The notes beneath the pieces are model-generated. The model saw nothing but the letters and a program-made list of their open reading frames with translations. It did no database searches and was not told the DNA's origin. From Pseudoscleropodium purum (lineage: Eukaryota > Streptophyta > Bryopsida > Hypnales > Brachytheciaceae): a stretch of DNA of 64,000 nucleotides. The position numbers and the translations under genes were made by a program. The stretch spans positions 2,542,001 through 2,606,000 of the forward strand of contig OZ017804.1 in assembly GCA_963969395.1 (NCBI GenBank). Direction: 5' to 3'. Positions 26,967 through 49,600 of the stretch are shown here, one piece after another; position 1 is the first letter of the stretch; the number at the start of each line of letters is the position of its first letter.

Positions 26967-29865
26967 GTGCTCCAAAGTCCATATTTTGAATGGTGAATGT
27001 AGGGCTTCCTTGCCATGTCTTGTTTGGATAATTTTTCATTCATCCAAATTAATGTTTGAATCTTGAAAAGATGACATTTTTTTTATGATTGACTAATATT
27101 ATGAAATTGATGTAAAGTAAATAGTTGTTCCAATATAATAAAAAATGCGATAAATCTTAGAAATCGATTTGGGCATGAAATGTTAGTGATGTCTTTTCAA
27201 AATTGAATGTTTTTTCTTGTTTAATTTAGTATTTCATGTTTAGGTGATAAAATGCTTGATTTTCCAAGTGATGGAATCCTTCTTGGGTTGTTATCTATAC
27301 AAGTTGATATGAAGAGTTTTTGGTTGTGAAAAAATATACAAAGGTGAGTTTCTATGTAATAGAATGTCTTCTCTATCACCCTATTGTGGCTTGTGTGATT
27401 CAAATGTGAGCTATTGAATGCTATAGATATAGCATATTGGCTATTCTTGTGAAGGATGGAGAATTTTTTTTGTTCAATTAATGGCATTTCAACACTATGG
27501 TACCTTTTAGAAAGCAAGTTCTAGATTTGAGACCTTTTTGGACATGCATGTTACAATTTTTGGATATGGATGTATACAAATTTAATGAAATTTTTTCTAG
27601 TGGATAAAGTTTGGTATAGATAATGTTTCAATTGGAAAAGTAAAAGGACTGTCTTATACAATAGTGTGTCATGATGTGTCTTATCTAGATTTGATCGTTC
27701 CAAGAATTTATTACTATGTTTGTTGTAGTTTCTTTTTTTATTATATGACAAAGTTTTTCTAGGACATTTCAAGTGTACCATGAATTTCAAAAACAAATTT
27801 TCATACTCTTGCCTAAGTATAATATCGGTTTCTCTTAGACAATTGAGTAAGCCTTTGCATTTCGTTGTTAATAGACTTGCAACTAAATCGAAATGGAACT
27901 TTTGTTTTTAAATTGTGGATAATTAATAAGTAATAATAGTTGGATTTAGAATTCTACAATTATAGATCCGTAAACAAATTACTTTTAAACTAATAATATT
28001 AAGGATGCGATTAAATATAAAAAGAAATTTTCAATTTTTGATTCTAAATTTTTTTTTCTTTATATATTAGTGACAACAATTATAAACCAATCCATGTATA
28101 TTTTATCCAAAATTCAATATGTACAACTTTTGCTTACTAACAAAGGCTAATTTTAAGCTATAATATCTTAGTTCTTTGACAAATTGTTTGCGCATTTTTG
28201 CACTTTCAATTAGCATTCTTTTTCTATTGACTAAATTTATTTTAAAATCATTTAAAAAATATACAAAACATTAAATTCTTACAAAATTTGAGGGATCATA
28301 TTTTAAATTTATTCATTTATAAATAGTATATTGAAATTTTAATTGGAGATCTGTGATTTTGAGACCTCTCATTTAATAATATGCTAAGTAGTGAATGCCA
28401 ATACTTAGAGGGTTTAATAGGTCCAAAATTAATTCTATATTTGAATTTTCATCACAAAGTTCATTTGTATATTTTTACAAAATATAAATCATGAAAAAGT
28501 TCTTTATATAGAATGACAATGAAACTTTTAAAGTATATGAATATGAACAATTCAATTGAATAAAATTAAAAACAAATTATTTGATTTCATGTTACATATT
28601 AATCATTTGGAAAAATTTAAAACAAATACTTCTAGATGTTTTAAATTTTATAGTATGTGGAAGTTGTCAATGTCAATGCTTTGGTCTTTTAATTAACACT
28701 TTATTTGAATTATTAATATTTATTTTCTTTTAAATTTTCAATAATTTGTAACCAATGATCTTAGGATTTGTCATATCAATATGAATAATTTTTTTTTGTA
28801 AAGTAGTAGGGTACAATTTAATAGGTCATGTTTTGAAGATTGAAAATTTGGGAAAATTGTGAAAAGTTGTGCATTGCGACATGAAAACTAAATAATGCAT
28901 TGTTCCATGATAATGCCCCAATATTGAATTATTTTCTTAACTTTTTGATGACAATGCATTTTTATTGAACTTCAACTTTATTTATGATTCAATGCATTTA
29001 GGAGTTAACTTTGTCTTCAAGCTCATCTTTATTATTTATGAATCACTTGAATGTTTCTAGATTTTCTTTTAAAATAACATTAAGAAATCTTAGCATGTGA
29101 CAAAATGCAAATGGCATCTTAACTGCAAGTACCTATACTCAATTTAAAGCACTTCAAAATTAAAAGTGTCCCAATTAAGGAATACTGAATATAGCAATAT
29201 TAGATACATTCATGCTCTCTCTATGCAATGCTTGATTGTCACTTCCTTTCAATTGGTTTTTAACTAGAAACTTTGACTATGGATTTTGTTGATGAAACTT
29301 ATTGCTTATTGTGGTGGAATTTTCATCAATGTCCATTTTTTGCTTGACAATTTTAAAACTTGAGCATATGAATTTTACACAAGAATTATTGAAATAGTTC
29401 AAACTATGTAGATTTGAAAACATTAATAGACCCTTGAATTGTGCATTGAAAGTAATATTGTTGAAGGCAATAGTAGTCTTATGATTCTATTACTTTGATG
29501 GAGGTTAAATGAAGAATTGTTTTCTAAACAATGTTGATGGATGCGAAATGGTAGTGTGCTATGTTGGACACTTGAGTTCAAATTTGCATTATCATGTTAA
29601 AATGATGTTATATCTCCAAAGTGAATGCTTGAGCATTTCATTAGTTTTTTAACTTTTGAATGTATGTTTTAGACTTATGTTGAAATGTTTTAAGGCAAGT
29701 GATATGTTGGCGATGACTAGGTTACTTGATCAAATTATGTTTCTTAGAGGTTGTTTGTATTCAATACTCACTACTTGAAAAACATTTTGAATATCTTGTG
29801 TTTTTGTGGTGGATAGTGATTCAAATTATGTTATTTTTCATTTATATTTTTCATTGAATTTGCAG

Positions 29866-29939
29866 GCAAGGGGTACTACAATGTGATTCCAAAGTTTGTA
29901 TAATTCACATGATTTCCTAAAACCTCTATTGGTTCAATA
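29866..29939 (+). other. Probable 3' end of the 5'UTR (after a 5'UTR intron)
   Basis: The sequence before the start codon, TTCATTGAATTTGCAG ending at 29,865, is a good splice acceptor preceded by a T-rich tract. No ATG lies between it and 29,940. The matching donor may be GCATGAG|GTGAGT at 24,051. This is inference from splice-like signals only. Confidence 0.45.
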
Positions 29940-31460
29940 ATGGACACCCCTTTGAAACTATTGAAGGGAATTACTTTGAAACTATCAAGAGTTTTTTGTG
30001 CACTCACTCCAATGGATGATGATTTCATGCAATGGTATGGAGACTATAGTAAGAAGATTGACGACATATTGGCAAGAGATGATTTGCATATCTTGAATGC
30101 AAAGCAATGTCGACATTTGGTCAAGAAGCTTCGGTCTACAATGGATTGGATATTGAAGGAGATATACTCCTCTGGTCGTGTTCATGAATTTGAAAGGATC
30201 TTGAAGGAGGTGCATCATCTTGTGTTCAAAACATTTTCGCTAGTTGAAAAATGTGGAAGTGTGGATCTATACATTTCATCTATTTTTCAATTGGAAAATG
30301 AAGAATCATTTCGAGAGTTGTTGTTGGAGTTGGAGTGTTGCTTCAAAGCCACAAATGCAAAGATTCAATCCAAGAATGAGTTACATTCATTTGATTTTGG
30401 GATTGCATCTTTTAAAGATGTTCAACTTGATCGAGAAAACTTCAAAAGGATATTGAAAAATTCAAAGATTGCCGTGGTGTCGAACATGTCTTCTAAACTT
30501 TCAACATATTTGTTGGAGAGGTTGGAGGCCCTTGATCATGTGAAAGGAGGTGAATTGAATACTTTGAAGTTTGTCGATTGTGGTTCGTTTGAGAAAGGCA
30601 AACAACTTGGTGAGGTTGGAGGTGATGGTTCTGTTTACAAATCAAAGTGGATGGGCCTTACTTGTGCTACAAAAGTCTTGAATTCTTCCAGAGGAGAATG
30701 TGATGAGAAAACCATGGAGAATTTTTGTAAAGAATCCAGTATTCTTGCAGGCTTGAATCATCCCAACCTTGTCAAGTTCATGGGTATGGGCAAAGGTGAT
30801 GATGGATGGCCTTTTTTGATGATGGAAAAGATGGATACAAGTGTGAAGAACTTAATCACTAAGCACATCTCTTATGATGTTTTGCTTGATATTATTCAAC
30901 AAATAGCCAATGGTATGTATTATTTGCATGATATGCATGTGGCACATCGCGATTTGAAGCCCAGTAATATTCTTTGGATTCCATTGAGAGGAAAAGAGCG
31001 TTTCTGCCGATCTTCAAGTTCCTTTGGATATATAAAATTGACTGATTTTGGTATCTCTAAAATTGAAGTTGGAAGTGAAGGTTTTCAACCGGACAATATG
31101 GGCACCTCTATATACCGGGCTCCAGAGGTCTTGAAATTCCATATCAAGGGCAATGCAAATTACTTTCAAGCTGATGTGTATTCGTTTGGCATCACATGTG
31201 CAGAGATTTTGTGTGGTAAGTTGTCATTTGAACAACCATACAAATCTCCAAAAGATTTATATGAGAAGATAAAGGATGGAATGTGTCCCACTTTGCCAAG
31301 CTCTTGTGGAGAATTGAACACATTGATAAAGGAATGTTGTGCTTTCAATCCTTCAAGAAGGCCAACGTTTTCTGAGATTTGGAAGCGACTAAGAACTGTG
31401 AAAATCAATTATTTGGTTGGACAAGAAGGACTTCAGTCACTTATTTGCTCTTCAAGCAAG
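29940..31460 (+). CDS. Exon 1: N-terminal helical domain plus Ser/Thr kinase
   Basis: This exon encodes 507 residues. Residues about 20-200 are charged and probably helical, with Cys and Leu spacing (NAKQCRHL near 53-60, LKEVHHLVF near 88-96) that resembles the DUF1221-type region preceding some plant tyrosine-kinase-like kinases; that match is from memory and unverified. The kinase is complete: glycine loop LGEVGGDGSVYK (223-234), ATP-binding Lys245 in CATKVL, helix C Glu265, catalytic HRDLKPSN (336-343), DFG (369-371), APE (394-396), Asp412 of DVYSFG and the final RRPT motif near 473-476. HRDLKPSN is typical of Ser/Thr specificity, and nothing suggests a dead kinase. There is an insert of about 25 residues between HRDLKPSN and DFG. 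The exon ends TTCAAGCAAG|GTATGA, phase 0. Reading into the intron adds one Val and then a TGA, so unspliced RNA would encode a 508-residue stand-alone kinase. Confidence 0.92.
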
Positions 31461-34400
31461 GTATGATGCAAATTGTATTAAATGACTCGCACTAAGTTTT
31501 AGCAAGAAGTTGAAAACCATAGAAAGTGTTCAAAATGTAAGCCATAAAGTACAATTGTGGAATTATCAAATTATAAGATGATTTCTTAGGTACAAATGTG
31601 AATGCTTTACTTATTATGTGATCTATTTGTCAATTGCAATACCCTCTAGTAGTAGTTTATATTTAAACTTTAGAGATGAATTCTTGTTATAATATCAAAC
31701 CAATTCTTTTAGTTATGAAATAATGTGAGGAGCATTCAATAGAAGAATATGATTTATCTTTGTGAAGAGTTGTTTGTAAGTGAAAATTAGCATATTGCCT
31801 AGTAAAGAAGTATGGAATAACTTGCTAGTAAAGTCCTTTCATTATGACATCAATTATTATACTAAAGAATCTTTTGTGCCTCTTTGTCATTTTTGATAAG
31901 CATGTTAACCCCTACACGTCATAGGCAGAACACCGGAAGACAAGAGTTTTTTTTGTGTTGAATAGGAAAATTGGAAAAACTAAAAATTCTCTTATTTACT
32001 CAAGACATCATTGTTGAATTTTGTAGCCAACAACCTAACGAGTGTCAAAGTTCAATTTCTCAAAGATTTCACCACATAGATTCAGAGATTATAATAGTTG
32101 ATGAACAGGGTCTTTCACGAATCTATGATACTCAACGGCCAAAAAACATCCGCTATGACGTTGAAGTGTTAAACTTGATTTGATCAACTTTAACATCTTT
32201 CAAAGTTTGAATGAATCCTCTTTTCAATGTTTGAAAAGAACTCTAAGATGATTTTGTATTTCTAATTAATAGATATGATGAGATTGAAGTTCTTGGAGAT
32301 TTCACTGAATTATAATTCTTAGTTCCTAAACTCCTTAATTTAAGATATTGTCAACCTATATATCCTTATTATAACCTTAAACTTGAAGTTGAAACTTTTT
32401 CACTAGGTTTAATTTGAATTTATTTTTTAATAAAGAGAGGCATGATAAATTTTTTCATAATATTCCATTTTTAGTACATTTTTTTTCAATTAATATATTG
32501 GTTAAATCAAATAATGCACTTGTGGTTTGCTTCTACTCCAATTCCATATGTATTGTCGTACTCATATTTATATAACTTAATTTTTTGTTTGTTGATCATT
32601 GCAATTGTAGTAAATAATTAAACAAATTGTCACAATTGTAGGTCCACGAACCAAAGCCAAATGGAGACTATACAAAGTTATTTGGAGTTGATGAAAAAGT
32701 CAAAGAGGTGCAAAATCACCTTCAAAAAGTAAATTCGTTGGGCATCATTGGTATGGGTGGAGTTGGGAAAAGTACCATTGCCAAAGCTTTACTTCAAGTT
32801 GAAGAAAGAAATGCAAAGTTCAACAAAAGATGTTTCCATTATATTGGAAGGCTTCAAAGTGATGAAAAATGCCTACCAATATTACAAGACATATTGAAGA
32901 AATTGGATGTTGACAAGGAATTGGAGAATTTAGTCCACGGGCAAAGAGAACTAAAAGAGGCCTTGACAAAAAACAATACACTCCTCATTTTGGATGATGT
33001 ATGGGATTCAAGCCATTTCAACAACATCATATCACAAGACATCTTTTCATCATGTCCAAATTCAACATTGATTGTGTGTTCACGTAATTCAGATGTGATA
33101 AAGGATCATGTTGATAAAACATATGAGTTACAACCATTGATGGATGGAGATTTGACTATGAAATTGTTCACTACTCATTGCTTTGGTGATGGAAAGGCCA
33201 ACATTCCCCATCCATTTTTGGAGGTGGGTTCAATGATTGTCACAGCTTGTATGGGGTTGCCTTTGAGTTTAAAGGTTCTTGGTGCCTTCTTGCATGGTAA
33301 AGAGAGGTTGAGAAGTTGGGAGAGAGTGTTGCAACGATTGAAAAGGGGTAGATCACCCCAAACTGGCAAACTTGGAGATGATTGGAGGATCTTTGAAGTA
33401 TTGAAGATTAGTTTTGATGGATTGGAGGAAGTGGAAAAAACCATGTTTTTGGACATTTGCTGTTTCTTCCTTGAAGATGTATATGGTCGAAGGTTGCATA
33501 TTCCCTTTGATTGTACCAACTTACTTACTTATGGTGAAAGTTTATTGACAAAAGCATTTGAGACATTGCAACATCGTTCACTAGTAGAAGTAATTGATGG
33601 GTTTTTACACGTGCATGATCACCTTCGTGATATGGGTCGAGAGATAGTAGAGTTGAAAGTTGATGCTCAAGTTTGTAGCATTGACAAATACAAGAAGTAT
33701 GCTGGAACTCGTCTTCAATATCCAAGTGCAACTACGTTTGAGCAAATGAAAAGAGAGGTTAGTTTTTGGTTGAAGAGACTATTTAGAAACTTACTTTCAT
33801 TTATATGAAGAATGCTTCACTTAGTTTTATTCATGATTTGCCTACCTAATTATATTGATTACATCTATTTTGTGTAAACTTGCAATTTTGAAGTGGTTTA
33901 GAGTTTATGTAGTAAATCAAAATTGTGAGACTTAAGACATGGGATATTATACATGTAAGCAGGGATTTGACTTCAAGAGTCTTGAAGGGGTTTTATATCA
34001 AGCATCAAAGAAAGATGTTATCCTCAACAAACATTTGAATGAAAAGAATTATCCAAAGCTTCGTATGTTTTTAGTTGAAACAGGTATGTGTATGACAAGT
34101 CACTATTCAATATGCACTATAATGAGATTGATTTTGCATGTGAAGATTTATGATCAATTTATAGTAAATTTCTATATTAGACACTTTATTTAGTAGAAAC
34201 AATAGGCAAAATGACTAAGAGTAGTAACCAATAATTTGAATTAAAGATTAATAATATATAGTTCTATTCATTTTCTTCAACATTTGACCTGACTATTCCA
34301 TAACATTTTATGAAAGACTTCATGATATTTTTTTCCAATTTCTACTTTTAGACTATGAAAAGAAGTATGAATATTACAAAATAATAGGTTTTGGTATTTA

Positions 34401-37400
34401 ACCTTGTTAAGGTCAATAATCCATGTATTATTTATAATTATGGACAAATTTTCGAAAGATTTGAGAGGAGTTTGAATAGAGTGTCTTTTCCTTTGAACTT
34501 TCGTTATTAATGCTTTCTATTCCATTTGTACATGCAGAAGAAAAGAAAATATCGTTGGACTTTAAGAATTTGACTCACGTGACAATATTGAAGTTATATG
34601 GTTCTCATTTAGAGAAACTACCAATAGGATTGTCAGAAATGAAGTCATTGAAGTCATTAAACCTCCGATGTTCTAGGCTATGGTTGTTTCCAAAACAAAT
34701 GTTCAGTTTACCTTTGACATCACTTGATTTGAGTGGATGTTCCAACCTAACGACATTGCCGGACGCATTGGGGAACTTGTCTTCTTTGAAATCACTCAAT
34801 TTGAGTGCATGTAAGAAGCTGTTGACATTGCCGGGAGCATTGGGGAACTTGTCTTCTTTGACATCACTCAATTTGAGTGAATGTTCCAACCTAACGACAT
34901 TGCCGGACGCATTAGGGAACTTGTCTTCTTTGACATCATTGCATTTGATTGCATGTAAGAAGCTACTGACATTGCTGGGAGCATTGGAGAACTTGTCTTC
35001 TTTGACATCATTGGATTTGAGTTGGTGCTCCAAGCTATTGACATTGCCAGGAGCATTGGGGAACTTGTCTTCTTTGGCATCACTCAAATTGAATGGATGT
35101 TCCAACCTAACGACATTGCCGGACGCATTGGGGAACTTGTCTTCTTTGACATCGTTGGATTTCAGGTGGTGTTCCAACCTAACGACATTGCCGGACGCAT
35201 TAGGGAACTTGTCTTCTTTAACATCATTGGATTTGAGTGCATGTAAGAAGCTATCAACATTGCCAAGAGCATTGGGGAACTTGTCTTCTTTGACATCACT
35301 CAATTTGAGTGAATGTTCCAACCTAACGACATTGTCGGGCGCATTGGGGAACTTATCTTCTTTGACATCACTCAATTTGAGTGAATGTTCCAACCTAATG
35401 ACATTGTCGAGCACATTGGGGAACTTATCTTCTTTGACATCACTCAATTTGAGTAAATGTTCCAAGCTAACGACATTGCCGGATGCATTGGGGAACTTGT
35501 CTTCTTTGACATCACTCAATTTGAGTTGGTGTTCCAACCTAACGACATTGCCGGACGCATTGGGGAACTTGTCTTCTTTGACATCACTCAATTTGAGTGA
35601 ATGTTCCAACCTAACGACATTGCCGGATGCATTGGGGAACTTGTCTTCTTTGACATCATTAAATTTGAGTTGGTGTTCCAACCTAACGACATTGTCGGGA
35701 GCATTGGGGAACTTGTCTTCTTTGACATCACTCAATTTGAGTGAATGTTCCAACCTAACAACATTGCCGGACGCATTGGGGAACTTGTCTTCTTTGACAT
35801 CATTGGATTTGAGTTGGTGTTCCAACCTAACGACATTGTCGGGAGCATTGGGGAACTTGTCTTCTTTGACATCACTCAATTTGAGTTGGTGTTCCAACCT
35901 AACGACATTACCGGACGCATTGGGGAACTTGTCTTCTTTGACATCACTCAATTTGAGTGGGTGTTCCAATCTAACGACATTGCCTGACGCATTGGGGAAC
36001 TTGTCTTCTTTGACATCACTTTATTTGACTGCATGTAAGAAGCTATCAACATTGCCGAGAGCATTAGGGAACTTGTCTTCTTTAACAACACTCAATTTGA
36101 GGTGGTGTTCCAACCTAACGACATTGCCGGATGCATTGGGGAACTTGTCGTCTTTGACATCATTCAATTTCAATGAATGTTCCAACCTAACGACATTGCT
36201 GGGAGCATTGGGGAACTTGTCTTCTTTGACATCACTCAATTTGAGTGGATATTCTTACCTAACGACATTGTCGGGAGCATTGGGGAACTTGTCTTCTTTG
36301 ACATCACTCAATTTGAGTTGGTGTTCCAACCTAACGACATTGCCGGACGCATTGGGGAACTTGTCTTCTTTGACATCACTCAATTTGAATGGATGTTCCG
36401 ACCTAATGACATTGCCGAACACATTGGGGAACTTGTCTTCTTTGACATCGTTGGATTTGAGGTTGTGTTCTAACCTAATGACATTGCCAGGAGCATTGGG
36501 GAACTTGTCTTCTTTGGCATCACTCAAATTGAATGGATGTTCCAACCTAACGACATTGCCGGACGCATTGGGGAACTTGTCTTCTTTGACATCATTCAAT
36601 TTGAGTTGGTGTTCCAACCTAACGACATTGCCGGACGCATTGGGGAACTTGTCTTCTTTGACATCACTCAATTTGAGTTGGTGTTCCAACCTAACGACAT
36701 TGCCGGACGCATTGGGGAACTTGTCTTCTTTGACATCACTCAATTTGAGTTGGTGTTCCAACCTAACGACATTGCCGGACGCATTGGGGAACTTGTCTTC
36801 TTTGAAATCATTTAATTTGAATGGATGTTCCAACCTAACAACATTGCCGGATACAGTGGGGAATTTGTGTTCTTTGACATCATTGGATTTGAGTGCATGT
36901 AAGAAGCTATCGACATTGACGGGAGCATTGGGGAACTTGTCTTCTTTGACATCACTCAATTTGAGTGAATATTCCAACCTAACGACATTGCTGGAAGCAT
37001 TGGGGAACTTGTCTTCTTTGACATCATTCAATTTGAGTGGATATTCTGACCTTCCAACATTGCCAAACGCATTGGGGAACTTGTCTTCTTTGACATCACT
37101 CAATTTGAATGGATGTTCCAACCTAACGACATTGCCGGATGCATTGGGGAACTTGTCTTCTTTGACATCACTTGATTTGAGTGAATGTTCCAACCTAACG
37201 TCGTTGCCGGACGCATTGGGGAACTTGTCTTTTTTGACATCACTCAATTTGAATGGCTGTTCCAACCTAACGACATTGCTGGGAGCATTGGGGAACTTGT
37301 CTTCTTTGACATCACTCAATTTGAGTAGATATTCTGACCTAACGACATTGCCAGATGCATTGGGGAACTTGTCTTCTTTGACATCACTCAATTTGAATGG

Positions 37401-38553
37401 ATGTTCCAACCTAACGACATTGCCGGATGCATTGGGGAACTTGTCTTCTTTGACATCGTTGGATTTGAGGTCGTGTTCTAACCTAATGACATTGCCAGGA
37501 GCATTGGGGAACTTGTCTTCTTTGACATCACTCAATTTGATTGGATGTTCCAATCTATGGACATTGCCGGACGCATTGGGGAACTTGTCTTCTTTGACAT
37601 CATTGGATTTGAGTGGATGTTCCAACCTAACGACATTGCCGGACACATTGGAGAACTTGTCTTCTTTGACATCACTCAATTTGAGTGGGTGTTCCAACCT
37701 AACGACATTACTGGACGCATTGGGGAACTTGTCTTCTTTGACATCACTCAATTTGAGGTGGTGTTCCAACCTAACGACATTGCCGGACGCATTGGGGAAC
37801 TTGTCTTCTTTGACATCACTCAATTTGAGTGAATGTTCCAACCTAACAACATTGCCGGACGCATTGGGGAACTTGTCTTCTTTGACATCATTGGATTTGA
37901 GTTGGTGTTCCAACCTAACGACATTGTCGGGAGCATTGGGGAACTTGTCTTCTTTGACATCACTCAATTTGAGTTGGTGTTCCAACCTAACGACATTGCC
38001 GGATGCATTGGGGAACTTGTCGTCTTTGACATCACTTTATTTGAGTGGATGTTCGAACCTATCGTCATTGCCGGACGCATTGGGGAACTTGTCTTCTTTG
38101 ACATCATTGGATTTGAGTGCATGTAAGAAGCTATCGACATTGTCGAGAGCACTGGGGAACCTGTCTTCTTTGACATCATTCAATTTGAGTGCATGTTCCA
38201 ACCTAACGACATTGCCGGACGCATTGGGGAACTTGTCTTCTTTGACATCACTCAATTTGAGTTGGTGTTCCAACCTAACGACATTGCCGGACGCATTGGG
38301 GAACTTGTCTTCTTTGACATCACTCAATTTGAGTGGATGTTCCAACCTAACGACATTGCCGGACACATTGGGGAACTTGTCTTCTTTGACATCATTGGAT
38401 TTGAGTTGGTGTTCCAACCTAACGACATTGTCGGGAGCATTGGGGAACTTGTCTTCTTTGACATCACTCAATTTGAATGGATGTTCCAACCTATCGACAT
38501 TGCCGAACGCATTGGGGAACTTGTCGTCTTTGACATCATTGGATTTGAGCTGA
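29940..38553 (+). CDS. Kinase-NB-ARC-LRR intracellular immune receptor (PNL class), four coding exons
   Basis: Predicted CDS join(29940..31460, 32642..33757, 33963..34083, 34538..38553), 2,257 residues. Order: N-terminal helical region (about 20-200), Ser/Thr kinase (about 215-490), NB-ARC (about 530-860), linker, then LRRs. All introns are GT-AG and keep frame (phases 0, 0, 1), and each junction joins coding-like protein, so the model is well supported from sequence alone. Kinase-NBS-LRR receptors are the PNL class described in mosses; such proteins are thought to sense pathogen effectors through the LRR, switch by ATP/ADP exchange in NB-ARC, and signal through the N-terminal module. The start is the first ATG of the open frame; an AG at 29,864-29,865 upstream suggests a 5'UTR intron. 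The stop is a TGA inside an LRR, and the LRR frame continues beyond it for about 10.5 kb, so the natural C-terminus is uncertain. It could be functional with 53 LRRs, or a recently truncated allele. Confidence 0.9.
31461..32641 (+). other. Intron 1 between kinase and NB-ARC exons
   Basis: This 1,181-bp AT-rich intron starts GTATGA and ends TTGTAG, phase 0. A solitary TTAACCCCTA sequence at about 31,904 matches the end of the TTAA element family found elsewhere in the window and may be a remnant. Short open frames inside (for example 31,971-32,183) have no recognisable product. Confidence 0.85.
32642..33757 (+). CDS. Exon 2: NB-ARC nucleotide-binding switch domain
   Basis: This exon encodes 372 residues in frame with exon 1. 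It opens with VHEPKPNGDYTKLFGVDEKV, the usual lead-in to an NLR nucleotide-binding domain. Motifs in order: P-loop GMGGVGKST, kinase-2 TLLILDDVW, RNBS-B-like STLIVCSRN, GLPL as MGLPLSLKVLG, RNBS-D-like FLDICCFF, and an MHD-type motif VHDHLRDMGREIV. Val replaces the usual Met of MHD, a variation tolerated in many NLRs. The DMGREIV ending resembles TIR-type NLRs, while the Trp closing kinase-2 is more common in CC-types, so the domain is not a textbook member of either. Everything needed to bind and switch on nucleotide appears present. The donor is AAGAGAG|GTTAGT, phase 0. Failure to splice would add 16 residues and then stop, giving a kinase-NB-ARC protein without LRRs. Confidence 0.93.
33758..33962 (+). 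other. Intron 2
   Basis: This 205-bp intron begins GTTAGT and ends GTAAGCAG, phase 0. The acceptor lacks a strong pyrimidine tract; it was chosen because it puts coding-like downstream sequence in frame with exon 2. Confidence 0.72.
33963..34083 (+). CDS. Exon 3: short linker between NB-ARC and LRR
   Basis: This exon is 121 bp and encodes about 40 residues starting GFDFKSLEGVLYQASKKDVI and ending LRMFLVET. It resembles the spacer between the MHD motif and the first LRR strands in plant NLRs (an 'LRML/LRMF' strand is common there). It carries one nucleotide of a split codon into exon 4 (phase 1), and the split Glu codon restores the LRR frame exactly, which is good evidence for the exon. Confidence 0.75.
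34084..34537 (+). other. Intron 3
   Basis: This 454-bp AT-rich intron begins GTATGT and ends TACATGCAG, phase 1. It contains stops in all forward frames. Confidence 0.8.
34538..38553 (+). CDS. Exon 4, translated part: LRR domain up to the first TGA
   Basis: About 65 residues of irregular LRR (LKLYGSHLEKLP, LNLRCSRLWLFP) lead into a strictly periodic array that starts at 34,738. Each 24-residue unit fits CSNLxTLPxALGNLSS followed by LTSLxLSx. Fifty-three in-register units precede the TGA at 38,551-38,553. Variation concentrates at the residue after LNLS (Gly, Glu, Trp, Ala, Arg), the exposed strand position normally used for ligand contact, and at the two residues after TL(P/S/L). The rest is almost invariant even at synonymous sites, as expected for repeats homogenised by unequal exchange. 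The stop lies at the variable Trp position (AGT TGG TGT in sister units, AGC TGA TGT here). Confidence 0.9.
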
Positions 38554-41500
38554 TGTTCCAACCTAACGACATTGCTGGAAGCATTGGGGAACTTGTCTTC
38601 TTTGACATCATTCAATTTGAGTGCATGTAAGAAGCTATCAACATTGCCGAGAGCATTAGGGAACTTGTCTTCTTTAACAACACTCAATTTGAGGTGGTGT
38701 TCCAACCTAACGACATTGCCGGATGCATTGGGGAACTTGTCGTCTTTGACATCACTTTATTTGAGTGGATGTTCGAACCTATCGTCATTGCCGGACGCAT
38801 TGGGGAACTTGTCTTCTTTGACATCATTGGATTTGAGTGCATGTAAGAAGCTATCGACATTGTCGAGAGCACTGGGGAACCTGTCTTCTTTGACATCATT
38901 CAATTTGAGTGGATGTTCCAACCTAACGACATTGCCGGACGCATTGGGGAACTTGTCTTCTTTGACATCACTCAATTTGAATGGATGTTCCAACCTAATG
39001 ACATTGCTGGAAGCATTGGGGAACTTGTCTTCTTTGACATCACTCAATTTGAGTGGATATTCAGACCTAATGACATTACCAGACGCATTGGGGAACTTGT
39101 CTTCTTTGACATCACTCAATTTGAATGAATGTTCCAACCTAACAACATTGCCGGACGCATTGGGGAACTTGTCTTCTTTGACATCACTCAATTTGAATGG
39201 ATGTTCCAACCTAACGACATTGCTGGGAGCATTGGGGAACTTGTCTTCTTTGACATCACTCAATTTGAGTGGATATTCCAACCTAACGACATTGCTGGAA
39301 GCATTGGGGAACTTGTCTTCTTTGACATCATTCAATTTGAGTGCATGTTCCAATCTATTGAAATTGCCGGACGCATTGGGGAACTTGTCTTCTTTGACAT
39401 CACTTGATTTGAGTGAATGTTCCAACCGAACGTCATTGCCGGACGCATTGGGGAACTTGTCTTCTTTGACATCACTCAATTTGAATGAATTTTCCAACCT
39501 AACAACATTGCCGGACGCATTGGGGAACTTGTCTTCTTTGACATCACTCAATTTGAATGGATGTTCCAACCTAACGACATTGCTGGGAGCATTGGGGAAC
39601 TTGTCTTCTTTGACATCATTGGATTTGAGTTGGTGTTCCAACCTAACGATATTGTCGGGAGCATTGGGGAACTTGTCTTCTTTGACATCACTCAATTTGA
39701 ATGGATGTTCCAACCTATCGACATTGCCGAACACATTGGGGAACTTGTCGTCTTTGACATCACTTGATTTGAGTGAATGTTCCAACCTAACGTCATTGCC
39801 GGACGCATTGGGGAACTTGTCTTCTTTGACATCACTCAATTTGAATGAATGTTCCAACCTAACAACATTGCCGGACGCATTGGGGAACTTGTCTTCTTTG
39901 ACATCACTCAATTTGAATGGATGTTCCAACCTAACGACATTGCTGGGAGCATTGGGGAACTTGTTTTCTTTGACATCACTCAATTTGAGTGAATGTTCCA
40001 ACCTAACGGCATTGTCGGACACATTGGGGAACTTGTCTTCTTTGACATCGTTGGATTTGAGGTGGTGTTTTAACCTAATGACATTGCCAGGAGCATTGGG
40101 GAACTTGTCTTCTTTGACATCACTCAATTTGAGGCGGTGTTTTAACCTAACGACATTGCCGGACGCATTGGGGAACTTGTCTTCTTTGACATCACTCAAT
40201 TTGAGTGGATGTTCCAACCTAACGACATTGCCGGACACATTGGGGAACTTATCTTCTTTGACATCACTCAATTTGAGTTGGTGTTCCAACCTAACGACAT
40301 TACCGGACGCATTGGGGAACTTGTCTTCTTGGATATCACTCAATTTGAGTTGGTGTTCCAACCTAACGACATTGCCTGACGCATTGGGGAACTTGTCTTC
40401 TTTGACATCACTCAATTTGAGTTGGTGTTCCAACCTAACGACATTGCCGGACGCATTGGGGAACTTGTCTTCTTTGACATCACTCAATTTGAGTGAATGT
40501 TCCAACCTAACAACATTGCCGGACGCATTGGGGAACTTGTCTTCTTTGACATCACTCAATTTGAGTGAATGTTCCAACCTAACAACATTGTCGGGAGCAT
40601 TGGGGAACTTGTCTTCTTTGACATCACTCAATTTGAGTTGGTGTTCCAACCTAACGACATTGCCGGACGCATTGGGGAACTTGTCTTCTTTGACATCACT
40701 CAATTTGAATGGATGTTCCAACCTAACGACATTGCTGGGAGCATTGGGGAACTTGTCTTCTTTGACATCACTCAATTTGAGTGGATATTCTGACCTAACG
40801 ACATTGCCAGATGCATTGGGGAACTTGTCTTCTTTGACATCACTCAATTTGAGTGAATGTTCCAACCTAACGGCATTGTCGGACACATTGGGGAACTTGT
40901 CTTCTTTGACATCGTTGGATTTGAGGTGGTGTTTTAACCTAATGACATTGCCAGGAGCATTGGGGAACTTGTCTTCTTTGACATCACTCAATTTGAATGG
41001 ATGTTCCAATCTATGGACATTGCCGGACGCATTGGGGAACTTGTCTTCTTTGACATCATTGGATTTGAGTTGGTGTTCCAACCTAACGACATTGTCGGGA
41101 GCATTGGGGAACTTGTCTTCTTTGACATCACTCAATTTGAATGGATGTTCCAACCTATCGACATTGCCGAACGCATTGGGGAACTTGTCGTCTTTGACAT
41201 CATTGGATTTGAGCTGATGTTCCAACCTAACGACATTGCTGGAAGCATTGGGGAACTTGTCTTCTTTGACATCATTCAATTTGAGTGCATGTAAGAAGCT
41301 ATCAACATTGCCGAGAGCATTAGGGAACTTGTCTTCTTTAACAACACTCAATTTGAGGTGGTGTTCCAACCTAACGACATTGCCGGATGCATTGGGGAAC
41401 TTGTCGTCTTTGACATCACTTTATTTGAGTGGATGTTCGAACCTATCGTCATTGCCGGACGCATTGGGGAACTTGTCTTCTTTGACATCATTGGATTTGA

Positions 41501-44500
41501 GTGCATGTAAGAAGCTATCGACATTGTCGAGAGCACTGGGGAACCTGTCTTCTTTGACATCATTCAATTTGAGTGGATGTTCCAACCTAACGACATTGCC
41601 GGACGCATTGGGGAACTTGTCTTCTTTGACATCACTCAATTTGAATGGATGTTCCAACCTAATGACATTGCTGGAAGCATTGGGGAACTTGTCTTCTTTG
41701 ACATCACTCAATTTGAGTGGATATTCAGACCTAATGACATTACCAGACGCATTGGGGAACTTGTCTTCTTTGACATCACTCAATTTGAGTGAATGTTCCA
41801 ACCTAACGACATTGCCGGACGCATTAGGGAACTTGTCTTCTTTGACATCATTGCATTTGATTGCATGTAAGAAGCTACTGACATTGCTGGGAGCATTGGA
41901 GAACTTGTCTTCTTTGACATCATTGGATTTGAGTTGGTGCTCCAAGCTATTGACATTGCCAGGAGCATTGGGGAACTTGTCTTCTTTGGCATCACTCAAA
42001 TTGAATGGATGTTCCAACCTAACGACATTGCCGGACGCATTGGGGAACTTGTCTTCTTTGACATCGTTGGATTTCAGGTGGTGTTCCAACCTAACGACAT
42101 TGCCGGACGCATTAGGGAACTTGTCTTCTTTAACATCATTGGATTTGAGTGCATGTAAGAAGCTATCAACATTGCCAAGAGCATTGGGGAACTTGTCTTC
42201 TTTGACATCACTCAATTTGAGTGAATGTTCCAACCTAACGACATTGTCGGGCGCATTGGGGAACTTATCTTCTTTGACATCACTCAATTTGAGTGAATGT
42301 TCCAACCTAATGACATTGTCGAGCACATTGGGGAACTTATCTTCTTTGACATCACTCAATTTGAGTAAATGTTCCAAGCTAACGACATTGCCGGATGCAT
42401 TGGGGAACTTGTCTTCTTTGACATCACTCAATTTGAGTTGGTGTTCCAACCTAACGACATTGCCGGACGCATTGGGGAACTTGTCTTCTTTGACATCACT
42501 CAATTTGAGTGAATGTTCCAACCTAACGACATTGCCGGATGCATTGGGGAACTTGTCTTCTTTGACATCATTAAATTTGAGTTGGTGTTCCAACCTAACG
42601 ACATTGTCGGGAGCATTGGGGAACTTGTCTTCTTTGACATCACTCAATTTGAGTGAATGTTCCAACCTAACAACATTGCCGGACGCATTGGGGAACTTGT
42701 CTTCTTTGACATCATTGGATTTGAGTTGGTGTTCCAACCTAACGACATTGTCGGGAGCATTGGGGAACTTGTCTTCTTTGACATCACTCAATTTGAGTTG
42801 GTGTTCCAACCTAACGACATTACCGGACGCATTGGGGAACTTGTCTTCTTTGACATCACTCAATTTGAGTGGGTGTTCCAATCTAACGACATTGCCTGAC
42901 GCATTGGGGAACTTGTCTTCTTTGACATCACTTTATTTGACTGCATGTAAGAAGCTATCAACATTGCCGAGAGCATTAGGGAACTTGTCTTCTTTAACAA
43001 CACTCAATTTGAGGTGGTGTTCCAACCTAACGACATTGCCGGATGCATTGGGGAACTTGTCGTCTTTGACATCATTCAATTTCAATGAATGTTCCAACCT
43101 AACGACATTGCTGGGAGCATTGGGGAACTTGTCTTCTTTGACATCACTCAATTTGAGTGGATATTCTTACCTAACGACATTGTCGGGAGCATTGGGGAAC
43201 TTGTCTTCTTTGACATCACTCAATTTGAGTTGGTGTTCCAACCTAACGACATTGCCGGACGCATTGGGGAACTTGTCTTCTTTGACATCACTCAATTTGA
43301 ATGGATGTTCCGACCTAATGACATTGCCGAACACATTGGGGAACTTGTCTTCTTTGACATCGTTGGATTTGAGGTTGTGTTCTAACCTAATGACATTGCC
43401 AGGAGCATTGGGGAACTTGTCTTCTTTGGCATCACTCAAATTGAATGGATGTTCCAACCTAACGACATTGCCGGACGCATTGGGGAACTTGTCTTCTTTG
43501 ACATCATTCAATTTGAGTTGGTGTTCCAACCTAACGACATTGCCGGACGCATTGGGGAACTTGTCTTCTTTGACATCACTCAATTTGAGTTGGTGTTCCA
43601 ACCTAACGACATTGCCGGACGCATTGGGGAACTTGTCTTCTTTGACATCACTCAATTTGAGTTGGTGTTCCAACCTAACGACATTGCCGGACGCATTGGG
43701 GAACTTGTCTTCTTTGAAATCATTTAATTTGAATGGATGTTCCAACCTAACAACATTGCCGGATACAGTGGGGAATTTGTGTTCTTTGACATCATTGGAT
43801 TTGAGTGCATGTAAGAAGCTATCGACATTGACGGGAGCATTGGGGAACTTGTCTTCTTTGACATCACTCAATTTGAGTGAATATTCCAACCTAACGACAT
43901 TGCTGGAAGCATTGGGGAACTTGTCTTCTTTGACATCATTCAATTTGAGTGGATATTCTGACCTTCCAACATTGCCAAACGCATTGGGGAACTTGTCTTC
44001 TTTGACATCACTCAATTTGAATGGATGTTCCAACCTAACGACATTGCCGGATGCATTGGGGAACTTGTCTTCTTTGACATCACTTGATTTGAGTGAATGT
44101 TCCAACCTAACGTCGTTGCCGGACGCATTGGGGAACTTGTCTTTTTTGACATCACTCAATTTGAATGGCTGTTCCAACCTAACGACATTGCTGGGAGCAT
44201 TGGGGAACTTGTCTTCTTTGACATCACTCAATTTGAGTAGATATTCTGACCTAACGACATTGCCAGATGCATTGGGGAACTTGTCTTCTTTGACATCACT
44301 CAATTTGAATGGATGTTCCAACCTAACGACATTGCCGGATGCATTGGGGAACTTGTCTTCTTTGACATCGTTGGATTTGAGGTCGTGTTCTAACCTAATG
44401 ACATTGCCAGGAGCATTGGGGAACTTGTCTTCTTTGACATCACTCAATTTGATTGGATGTTCCAATCTATGGACATTGCCGGACGCATTGGGGAACTTGT

Positions 44501-47500
44501 CTTCTTTGACATCATTGGATTTGAGTGGATGTTCCAACCTAACGACATTGCCGGACACATTGGAGAACTTGTCTTCTTTGACATCACTCAATTTGAGTGG
44601 GTGTTCCAACCTAACGACATTACTGGACGCATTGGGGAACTTGTCTTCTTTGACATCACTCAATTTGAGGTGGTGTTCCAACCTAACGACATTGCCGGAC
44701 GCATTGGGGAACTTGTCTTCTTTGACATCACTCAATTTGAGTGAATGTTCCAACCTAACAACATTGCCGGACGCATTGGGGAACTTGTCTTCTTTGACAT
44801 CATTGGATTTGAGTTGGTGTTCCAACCTAACGACATTGTCGGGAGCATTGGGGAACTTGTCTTCTTTGACATCACTCAATTTGAGTTGGTGTTCCAACCT
44901 AACGACATTGCCGGATGCATTGGGGAACTTGTCGTCTTTGACATCACTTTATTTGAGTGGATGTTCGAACCTATCGTCATTGCCGGACGCATTGGGGAAC
45001 TTGTCTTCTTTGACATCATTGGATTTGAGTGCATGTAAGAAGCTATCGACATTGTCGAGAGCACTGGGGAACCTGTCTTCTTTGACATCATTCAATTTGA
45101 GTGCATGTTCCAACCTAACGACATTGCCGGACGCATTGGGGAACTTGTCTTCTTTGACATCACTCAATTTGAGTTGGTGTTCCAACCTAACGACATTGCC
45201 GGACGCATTGGGGAACTTGTCTTCTTTGACATCACTCAATTTGAGTGGATGTTCCAACCTAACGACATTGCCGGACACATTGGGGAACTTGTCTTCTTTG
45301 ACATCATTGGATTTGAGTTGGTGTTCCAACCTAACGACATTGTCGGGAGCATTGGGGAACTTGTCTTCTTTGACATCACTCAATTTGAATGGATGTTCCA
45401 ACCTATCGACATTGCCGAACGCATTGGGGAACTTGTCGTCTTTGACATCATTGGATTTGAGCTGATGTTCCAACCTAACGACATTGCTGGAAGCATTGGG
45501 GAACTTGTCTTCTTTGACATCATTCAATTTGAGTGCATGTAAGAAGCTATCAACATTGCCGAGAGCATTAGGGAACTTGTCTTCTTTAACAACACTCAAT
45601 TTGAGGTGGTGTTCCAACCTAACGACATTGCCGGATGCATTGGGGAACTTGTCGTCTTTGACATCACTTTATTTGAGTGGATGTTCGAACCTATCGTCAT
45701 TGCCGGACGCATTGGGGAACTTGTCTTCTTTGACATCATTGGATTTGAGTGCATGTAAGAAGCTATCGACATTGTCGAGAGCACTGGGGAACCTGTCTTC
45801 TTTGACATCATTCAATTTGAGTGGATGTTCCAACCTAACGACATTGCCGGACGCATTGGGGAACTTGTCTTCTTTGACATCACTCAATTTGAATGGATGT
45901 TCCAACCTAATGACATTGCTGGAAGCATTGGGGAACTTGTCTTCTTTGACATCACTCAATTTGAGTGGATATTCAGACCTAATGACATTACCAGACGCAT
46001 TGGGGAACTTGTCTTCTTTGACATCACTCAATTTGAATGAATGTTCCAACCTAACAACATTGCCGGACGCATTGGGGAACTTGTCTTCTTTGACATCACT
46101 CAATTTGAATGGATGTTCCAACCTAACGACATTGCTGGGAGCATTGGGGAACTTGTCTTCTTTGACATCACTCAATTTGAGTGGATATTCCAACCTAACG
46201 ACATTGCTGGAAGCATTGGGGAACTTGTCTTCTTTGACATCATTCAATTTGAGTGCATGTTCCAATCTATTGAAATTGCCGGACGCATTGGGGAACTTGT
46301 CTTCTTTGACATCACTTGATTTGAGTGAATGTTCCAACCGAACGTCATTGCCGGACGCATTGGGGAACTTGTCTTCTTTGACATCACTCAATTTGAATGA
46401 ATTTTCCAACCTAACAACATTGCCGGACGCATTGGGGAACTTGTCTTCTTTGACATCACTCAATTTGAATGGATGTTCCAACCTAACGACATTGCTGGGA
46501 GCATTGGGGAACTTGTCTTCTTTGACATCATTGGATTTGAGTTGGTGTTCCAACCTAACGATATTGTCGGGAGCATTGGGGAACTTGTCTTCTTTGACAT
46601 CACTCAATTTGAATGGATGTTCCAACCTATCGACATTGCCGAACACATTGGGGAACTTGTCGTCTTTGACATCACTTGATTTGAGTGAATGTTCCAACCT
46701 AACGTCATTGCCGGACGCATTGGGGAACTTGTCTTCTTTGACATCACTCAATTTGAATGAATGTTCCAACCTAACAACATTGCCGGACGCATTGGGGAAC
46801 TTGTCTTCTTTGACATCACTCAATTTGAATGGATGTTCCAACCTAACGACATTGCTGGGAGCATTGGGGAACTTGTTTTCTTTGACATCACTCAATTTGA
46901 GTGAATGTTCCAACCTAACGGCATTGTCGGACACATTGGGGAACTTGTCTTCTTTGACATCGTTGGATTTGAGGTGGTGTTTTAACCTAATGACATTGCC
47001 AGGAGCATTGGGGAACTTGTCTTCTTTGACATCACTCAATTTGAGGCGGTGTTTTAACCTAACGACATTGCCGGACGCATTGGGGAACTTGTCTTCTTTG
47101 ACATCACTCAATTTGAGTGGATGTTCCAACCTAACGACATTGCCGGACACATTGGGGAACTTATCTTCTTTGACATCACTCAATTTGAGTTGGTGTTCCA
47201 ACCTAACGACATTACCGGACGCATTGGGGAACTTGTCTTCTTGGATATCACTCAATTTGAGTTGGTGTTCCAACCTAACGACATTGCCTGACGCATTGGG
47301 GAACTTGTCTTCTTTGACATCACTCAATTTGAGTTGGTGTTCCAACCTAACGACATTGCCGGACGCATTGGGGAACTTGTCTTCTTTGACATCACTCAAT
47401 TTGAGTGAATGTTCCAACCTAACAACATTGCCGGACGCATTGGGGAACTTGTCTTCTTTGACATCACTCAATTTGAGTGAATGTTCCAACCTAACAACAT

Positions 47501-48700
47501 TGTCGGGAGCATTGGGGAACTTGTCTTCTTTGACATCACTCAATTTGAGTTGGTGTTCCAACCTAACGACATTGCCGGACGCATTGGGGAACTTGTCTTC
47601 TTTGACATCACTCAATTTGAATGGATGTTCCAACCTAACGACATTGCTGGGAGCATTGGGGAACTTGTCTTCTTTGACATCACTCAATTTGAGTGGATAT
47701 TCTGACCTAACGACATTGCCAGATGCATTGGGGAACTTGTCTTCTTTGACATCACTCAATTTGAGTGAATGTTCCAACCTAACGGCATTGTCGGACACAT
47801 TGGGGAACTTGTCTTCTTTGACATCGTTGGATTTGAGGTGGTGTTTTAACCTAATGACATTGCCAGGAGCATTGGGGAACTTGTCTTCTTTGACATCACT
47901 CAATTTGAATGGATGTTCCAATCTATGGACATTGCCGGACGCATTGGGGAACTTGTCTTCTTTGACATCATTGGATTTGAGTTGGTGTTCCAACCTAACG
48001 ACATTGTCGGGAGCATTGGGGAACTTGTCTTCTTTGACATCACTCAATTTGAATGGATGTTCCAACCTATCGACATTGCCGAACGCATTGGGGAACTTGT
48101 CGTCTTTGACATCATTGGATTTGAGCTGATGTTCCAACCTAACGACATTGCTGGAAGCATTGGGGAACTTGTCTTCTTTGACATCATTCAATTTGAGTGC
48201 ATGTAAGAAGCTATCAACATTGCCGAGAGCATTAGGGAACTTGTCTTCTTTAACAACACTCAATTTGAGGTGGTGTTCCAACCTAACGACATTGCCGGAT
48301 GCATTGGGGAACTTGTCGTCTTTGACATCACTTTATTTGAGTGGATGTTCGAACCTATCGTCATTGCCGGACGCATTGGGGAACTTGTCTTCTTTGACAT
48401 CATTGGATTTGAGTGCATGTAAGAAGCTATCGACATTGTCGAGAGCACTGGGGAACCTGTCTTCTTTGACATCATTCAATTTGAGTGGATGTTCCAACCT
48501 AACGACATTGCCGGACGCATTGGGGAACTTGTCTTCTTTGACATCACTCAATTTGAATGGATGTTCCAACCTAATGACATTGCTGGAAGCATTGGGGAAC
48601 TTGTCTTCCTTGACATCACTCAATTTGAGTGGATATTCAGACCTAATGACATTACCAGACGCATTGGGGAACTTGTCTTCTTTGACATCACTCAATTTGA
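34837..48700 (+). repeat. Tandem duplication of a 6,912-bp block (96 LRRs)
   Basis: Sequence from about 34,837 onward is repeated from about 41,749 onward at an offset of exactly 6,912 bp. The crossover point is hidden in 34,837-34,876, where the start of copy 1, the start of copy 2 and the sequence after copy 2 are all identical. Comparing the two copies in several reading frames I found one difference (T at 41,697, C at 48,609, silent in the LRR frame). This is either a very recent unequal crossover between LRR units or an assembly duplication. Confidence 0.9.
38373..39124 (+). repeat. Block recurring at 2,664-bp (37-LRR) spacing
   Basis: About 750 bp here, including the first TGA, matches 41,037-41,788 at an offset of 2,664 bp. 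The same pair recurs within the second 6.9-kb block. After 48,701 the array tail continues to follow the 39,125 sequence for roughly 150 bp, which suggests that the 37-unit event came before the 96-unit duplication, whose breakpoint fell inside this block. Confidence 0.8.
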
Positions 48701-49068
48701 ATGAATGTTCCAACCTAACAACATTGCCGGACGCATTGGGGAACTTGTCTTCTTTGACATCACTCAATTTGAATGGATGTTCCAACCTAACGACATTGCT
48801 GGGAGCATTGGGGAACTTGTCTTCTTTGACATCACTCAATTTGAGTGGATATTCTGACCTAACGACATTGCCAGATGCATTGGGGAACTTGTCTTCTTTG
48901 ACATCACTCAATTTGAGTGGATATTCTGACCTAACGACATTGCCAGATGCATTGGGGAACTTGTCTTCTTTGACATCACTCAATTTGAATGGATGTTCCA
49001 ATCTATCGAAATTGCCGGACGCATTGGGGAACTTGTCGTCTTTGACATCACTTGATTCAGGTGGATAA
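38554..49068 (+). pseudogene. LRR exon continuation beyond the premature TGA
   Basis: The LRR frame continues after the first stop for 146 more units, interrupted only by TGAs at 41,215-41,217, 45,463-45,465 and 48,127-48,129 and ended by TAA at 49,066-49,068. Open stretches between stops are 37, 59, 37 and 13 units. All four internal TGAs sit in the same unit context (LDLS-stop-CSNLTTLLEALGNL), so they are copies of one mutation rather than independent hits. No frameshift is present. If no stop were read, the whole receptor would be about 5,760 residues. I treat this as untranslated or pseudogenic tail; allelic variation, recoding or splicing around the stop cannot be excluded from sequence alone. 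Confidence 0.75.
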
Positions 49069-49600
49069 TCGAACTTATCAATAGTGCATAATGTATAGGA
49101 AGCTTTTCTTTTGTGACATCTCTTACTTTGAGTGGATATTCCTACCAAAAAATATTATCCAACATACTGGGGAACTTAACTTCTTTCACATCACTTCATT
49201 TGAGTGCATGTTCCAATCCATTGACACCACCCTATACATTGAAAAACTTGTCTTCTTTAACATTAGTCCATTTAATATTGGTTTTCCAACTTATTGACAT
49301 TGCCCGATGCAATGAAAACTTGTATCTATTGACATCACTTGATTTGAGTGGATTTTTTAACTTATCAACAATGTTGAATGCATTGGGAACTTGACTTCTT
49401 TGATTTTACTTGATTTGAGTTGGTATTACATTCTATTGACAATATTCAATGCATTGAAAACTTGATTTCTCTAAGATTTCTTCTTGTGGATGGATGTTCC
49501 ATCCTATTGACATTGCTTGACACCTTAAAGAATTTGGTGGTCATTGAATGCACTTGATGTAAGTGGATATTTTATCTATTGACATTGTCTAATGGATTAG
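49069..49600 (+). pseudogene. Degenerate LRR units at the 3' edge of the array
   Basis: Recognisable but decayed LRR units follow the array: at 49,113-49,394 a frame reads LTSLTLSGYS, then LGNLTSFTSLHLSACSNP and LTSLDLSGFFNLST. The 72-bp register is lost, and indels and substitutions are frequent. This looks like the old, un-homogenised margin typical of tandem arrays. The transcript end is not identifiable. Confidence 0.7.

Follow-up and report, generated by a model that had tools for sequence, protein, structure and literature searches.

The window analysed here (64,000 bp; bases 2542001-2606000 of contig C48, in a 313-Mb genome of 52 contigs) carries a gene that we read, with rather more confidence than doubt, as a receptor of the PK-NBS-LRR (PNL) class whose LRR exon has grown by unequal exchange and has since been reduced to 53 coding LRRs, leaving 146 probably untranslated units downstream. 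The run itself is as originally predicted: 199 contiguous 72-bp LRR units lie at 34738-49065 in unbroken register, all in one frame downstream of the kinase and NB-ARC frames. But the original prediction also took all 199 units to be coding within one exon, and here the sequence disagrees, as the frame is stopped by four TGA codons and its open part holds 53 units. The prediction left out, too, that the second half of the array copies the first.

Gene structure and the LRR array

The features of the gene, all on the plus strand, are as follows.

29940..31460, + strand: predicted exon 1 with a kinase domain (PF00069), putative start codon and boundaries, and a donor-like GTATGA at 31461
32642..33808, + strand: open frame of exon 2, with an NB-ARC domain (PF00931; GMGGVGKST, LLILDDVWD) and a Roq1-like winged helix; an acceptor-like TTGTAG lies directly before it
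34538..34737, + strand: irregular LRR-like units, the putative start of the LRR exon, after the TACATGCAG acceptor ending at 34537 and before the regular array
34738..38553, + strand: open part of the regular array, 53 LRR units of 24 residues each, up to and including the TGA at 38551
38551..38553, + strand: TGA in frame, at LRR position 24, a variable one; copies at 41215, 45463 and 48127
38554..49065, + strand: 146 more in-register LRR units past the first stop, from unit detection
49066..49068, + strand: TAA at the array end, in the same place as the stop of paralogue B
49066..49569, + strand: LRR-like tail, degenerate and with a broken frame, which paralogues B and C have as well

The kinase domain (E 2.3e-44) is N-terminal and the NB-ARC domain (E 7.6e-32) lies downstream of it; both frames are open and have their motifs, among them HRDLKPSN and DFG in exon 1, which we take to be kinase motifs. 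The LRR domain in the open frame scores E 2.6e-113 against PF23598. Splice-like sites are found at 31461, 32641 and 34537, and no donor was found for exon 2. Among relatives named to organism, the best for the NB-ARC domain is from Physcomitrium (P. patens) and the best for the kinase are from Sphagnum and Ceratodon. Judged from sequence features, the gene would belong to a tandem cluster of moss PNL genes and encode an immune receptor, with a predicted exon structure, product and immune role.

The 53 regular units belong to a first open stretch at 34480-38553. With units numbered 0-198, the first stop-bearing one is unit 52, that is, the 53rd. The only step other than 72 bp returned by the unit-detection script is one of 143 bp, which leads into the degenerate tail. 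Of the 199 units, 77 are distinct. The original prediction had also seen almost no synonymous variation between units, which is not what the counts give: compared with the unit consensus, the 53 pre-stop units have a pS of 0.098 and a pN of 0.076, and units 53-97 have 0.085 and 0.075. A chance origin of the array was rejected, as the unit core matches the 313-Mb genome 541 times at up to 3 mismatches and the same pattern read backwards 0 times.

Do these units fold as LRRs? A single-sequence AlphaFold2 model of 451 residues covering the first 16 units is a regular LRR solenoid (mean pLDDT 89.6) with strands at unit positions 19-21, which supports the predicted LRR fold for these units. Across the window, scans for Rfam families (at gathering threshold) and for tRNAs gave 0 matches each, and a Pfam scan of 10 out of 21 additional frames (stop to stop, at least 95 aa) gave 0 families; long frames on the minus strand of the array would be a side effect of its repetitiveness.

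Stops, duplications and the assembly question

A 199-LRR open frame is rejected by four in-frame TGA codons (38551, 41215, 45463 and 48127, in the frame from 34480), which precede the TAA at 49066. All four TGA units sit in identical 203-bp surroundings, so a single nonsense change was most likely copied. Its position is a variable one. In the collapsed array, from which one copy of a 96-unit duplication is left out to give 103 units, codon 24 is GGA 36 times, TGG 26, GAA 19, GCA 12, TGA 2 and GGG 2, with six further codons occurring once each; TGG and GGA are each a single base away from TGA. Since the stop-bearing unit is present four times, the array was still duplicating while carrying the stop. 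Self-comparison of the array gives the following repeats.

38366..39278, + strand: older repeat, with a 37-unit lag, that includes the TGA unit; 1 mismatch in 913 bp against 47942-48854
34837..41788, + strand: copy 1 of the 96-unit tandem duplication
41749..48700, + strand: copy 2 of this duplication, at a lag of 6912; 1 mismatch in 6952 bp against copy 1
41749..41788, + strand: exchange point, a 40-bp tract in unit 97 that is identical at both duplication ends and at the junction

The 37-unit-lag repeat (913 bp) is exact in the collapsed array, and the 1 mismatch arises when the last copy serves for the comparison. In the collapsed array, 52% of the part past the stop lies in exact tracts of 72 bp or more that also occur before the stop. 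Given a correct assembly, the larger event is an in-register duplication of 96 units with a homologous junction at the 40-bp tract.

We propose in-register mispairing and unequal exchange between 72-bp units, by which unit number would drift. In the window copy the run would have grown to about 103 units, with the variable codon 24 turned into a stop in unit 52, and the unit so altered would have been spread by the 37-unit-lag duplication. Last, assembly permitting, the array would have been doubled by a 96-unit exchange at the 40-bp identical tract. The predicted protein would have a kinase, an NBS and 53 LRRs, and most likely none of the remaining 146 units is translated. The repeats themselves are observed; the biological origin of the large one and the order of events are our reconstruction.

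Is the 6.9-kb duplication real? It either arose last, by unequal exchange in the very recent past, or is an error of assembly. We regard it as possible, if doubtful, that the assembler made it, in which case the true array would have about 103 units or another number. The two copies differ by just 1 mismatch in 6952 bp, and at the lag of 96 units 6860 bp are identical without interruption. This run is an outlier, about ten times as long as the maximum of the other arrays compared (B, C, the five of cluster II, L027 and L028), in which the top values are 690 bp for paralogue C and 575 bp for L027, and it is compatible with assembly error too. Repeat arrays are known to produce such errors (according to the available part of PMC6868369), and the melon NLR Vat has been misassembled or mispredicted in whole genomes, as the accessible text of PMC8012345 reports. 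A clean 40-bp homologous exchange at the junction, creating in unit 97 a unit that occurs once among the 199, argues the other way, as do a private base at 48609 in one copy and perhaps an assembly of 313 Mb in 52 contigs. An artefact would affect the second half alone, and the stop in unit 52 would stay.

Paralogues, constraint and the fate of the post-stop units

The genome has at least 124 scored NB-ARC matches. Among the 100 listed of the 541 unit-core matches, all are on the window contig, in two clusters: cluster I with D (broken), B, A (the window gene) and C, and cluster II with five loci near 5.27-5.48 Mb. These five (L020, L021, L024, L025 and L026) make up a second cluster of PNL-like genes, likewise with 72-bp arrays. 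Paralogues B and C share 95% identity with the window over 28000-34480, and their LRR exons are open, with 30 and 42 units that no stop interrupts and with the tail seen in the window array; in C, the place of the TAA at 49066 is taken by GAA and the stop comes 10 codons further on. Counting only units in which at least 50 of 72 bases are like the consensus of A, open and detected units number 2 and 20 in D, 30 and 31 in B, 53 and 200 in A, 42 and 43 in C, 42 and 58 in L020, 30 and 39 in both L024 and L021, 39 and 67 in L025, and 41 and 51 in L026, and cluster II has small separate unit groups further down too. The open-frame count of A is the highest of the nine loci and of the same order as the others; its total is the outlier. 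All 5 cluster II loci have LRR-like units past the stop, in tails with stops and frame steps that may simply be decaying.

These counts bear on the original idea that unequal exchange generates receptors of very different LRR length. For the family, a role of unequal exchange in altering LRR number is supported, with differing counts at nine loci, repeats within paralogue C at 13- and 14-unit lags and, assembly permitting, the 40-bp in-register junction; a 199-LRR receptor does not follow, as the open frame of 53 is of the order seen in the paralogues. A shares no identical unit with B or with C, and the latter two have 12 distinct units in common; the array of A has therefore diverged or been homogenised on its own.

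Could the whole gene be a dying pseudogene, its array now a neutral, coding-derived satellite? We think this unlikely. The premature TGA is present fourfold, so duplication continued after the stop, and the neighbouring paralogue D is plainly broken; against this, the kinase and NBS frames of the window gene are open with their motifs, and its 53 open LRRs exceed those of the other eight loci (30-42; broken D, 2). NG86 dN/dS is also below 1, a signal that in part possibly dates from before the stop: 0.52 (A-B), 0.57 (A-C) and 0.33 (B-C) for the kinase exon, 0.28, 0.23 and 0.41 for the NBS exon, and 0.53 (A-B) and 0.32 (A-C) for the short start of the LRR exon, where changes are few. An assembly artefact and a pseudogene are compatible with each other, and the likelihoods we give them overlap.

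Within the units, constraint hardly changes at the stop. Measured against the collapsed-array consensus, pN/pS at scaffold positions is 0.23 pre-stop and 0.20 post-stop, at concave positions (19, 21, 23 and 24) 0.87 and 1.27, and at other unit positions 1.13 and 1.05; the scaffold and concave classes are our own assignments, and the ratios are pooled over non-independent units, with no formal test. Relaxed constraint past the stop was not detected in scaffold violations, which occur in 3 of 50 post-stop and 0 of 53 pre-stop units (Fisher p=0.11). Because scaffold constraint is nearly equal on both sides, the post-stop units may be translated, or may have been until recently. That the stops are bypassed by inter-unit splicing or readthrough, to give a receptor whose LRRs number well above 53, is very improbable even so: the post-stop units retain register and scaffold constraint, and cryptic splicing between units of 34738-49065 is conceivable from 19 donor-like GTRAG and 23 acceptor-like [CT]AGG motifs, but four identical stops would have to be passed, the array has neither GTAAGT nor TGCAG, and paralogues B and C need no bypass.

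Returning to a receptor cut to 53 LRRs, what might the remaining units do? Being in register and scaffold-constrained, they could serve as a silent germline reservoir, from which unequal exchange across the stop would swap concave-face variants or blocks with the 53-LRR frame, the position of the stop setting receptor length. We consider this role improbable. More generally, the LRR exon of a moss NLR would here act as a coding satellite that is homogenised, keeps its register and is able to overshoot its stop. If the array is confirmed, the locus would be well suited to measuring LRR gain and loss, and whether post-stop units feed the coding part.

Relation to known systems and other loci

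Mosses have a PNL class with class-specific introns at domain boundaries (Xue et al. 2012, PMC3352924, as described in the part available), and P. patens has kinase-NL genes (PMC3991678, likewise in part). The window gene resembles the PNL class in the order of kinase, NB-ARC and LRR and in its moss relatives. Its splice-like sites would lie at domain boundaries of the kind for which the accessible part of PMC3352924 describes introns. The array length and the in-register units past the stop set it apart, neither being mentioned in the available portions of PMC3352924 and PMC3991678. Judged by titles and the beginnings of abstracts, none of the PMC open-licence papers listed by searches on giant or 72-bp moss LRR arrays or on silent LRR reservoirs reports either. 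In the protein comparison, which scored the best 7982 candidates at length ratios to the query of about 0.55-1.75, no run of 24-residue LRRs in register that the script pattern found in the best 120 of 1488 proteins exceeds 43 units. The 43-unit run belongs to P0241, a 2063-aa kinase-NB-ARC-LRR protein of P. patens, which is like the window gene in having such a run, with units that are fewer and less alike (mean pairwise amino-acid identity 0.68 vs 0.79 in the window array).

Change of LRR number by unequal exchange is a mechanism already known in kind: in flax M, tomato Cf and melon Vat it is ascribed to exchange between near-identical LRR blocks (PMC8012345, available part). By the same partial source, exchange in flax M goes through a 45-bp invariant region, compared with 40 bp in the window array, and melon Vat has 1-7 blocks of 65 residues (R65aa), whereas the units of the window array have 24 residues and number in the scores, the majority lying beyond the stop. 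The donor cassettes of lamprey VLR genes are similar in being LRR modules that lie next to an immune-receptor gene and do not themselves form the gene that is expressed; their assembly, however, occurs in lymphocyte development, and as the window gives no sign of somatic or directed exchange, the likeness to the system described in the accessible part of PMC6868369 is an analogy only.

Further observations concern other parts of the genome and of the cluster. In the two introns alongside window positions 31467-34479, divergence is 0.4% and 3.9% between B and C, 5.4% and 1.9% between A and C, and 5.4% and 4.3% between A and B, an unevenness that suggests gene conversion between the clustered genes. 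A simple LRR pattern, applied to the eight short NB-ARC loci L001-L008 and to L022 and L023, gave no runs in L002, L007 and L022, and runs in L001, L003-L006, L008 and L023. Finally, L027:1947-8294 (G000:C1:18921166-18930165) is an uninterrupted 2116-aa frame with an NB-ARC domain (PF00931, E 1.3e-33), after which two near-identical LRR types alternate, with 34 copies of each; a kinase-domain frame (PF00069, E 4e-17) lies upstream. With 68 LRRs, the open frame of L027 holds more than the 53 of the window gene.
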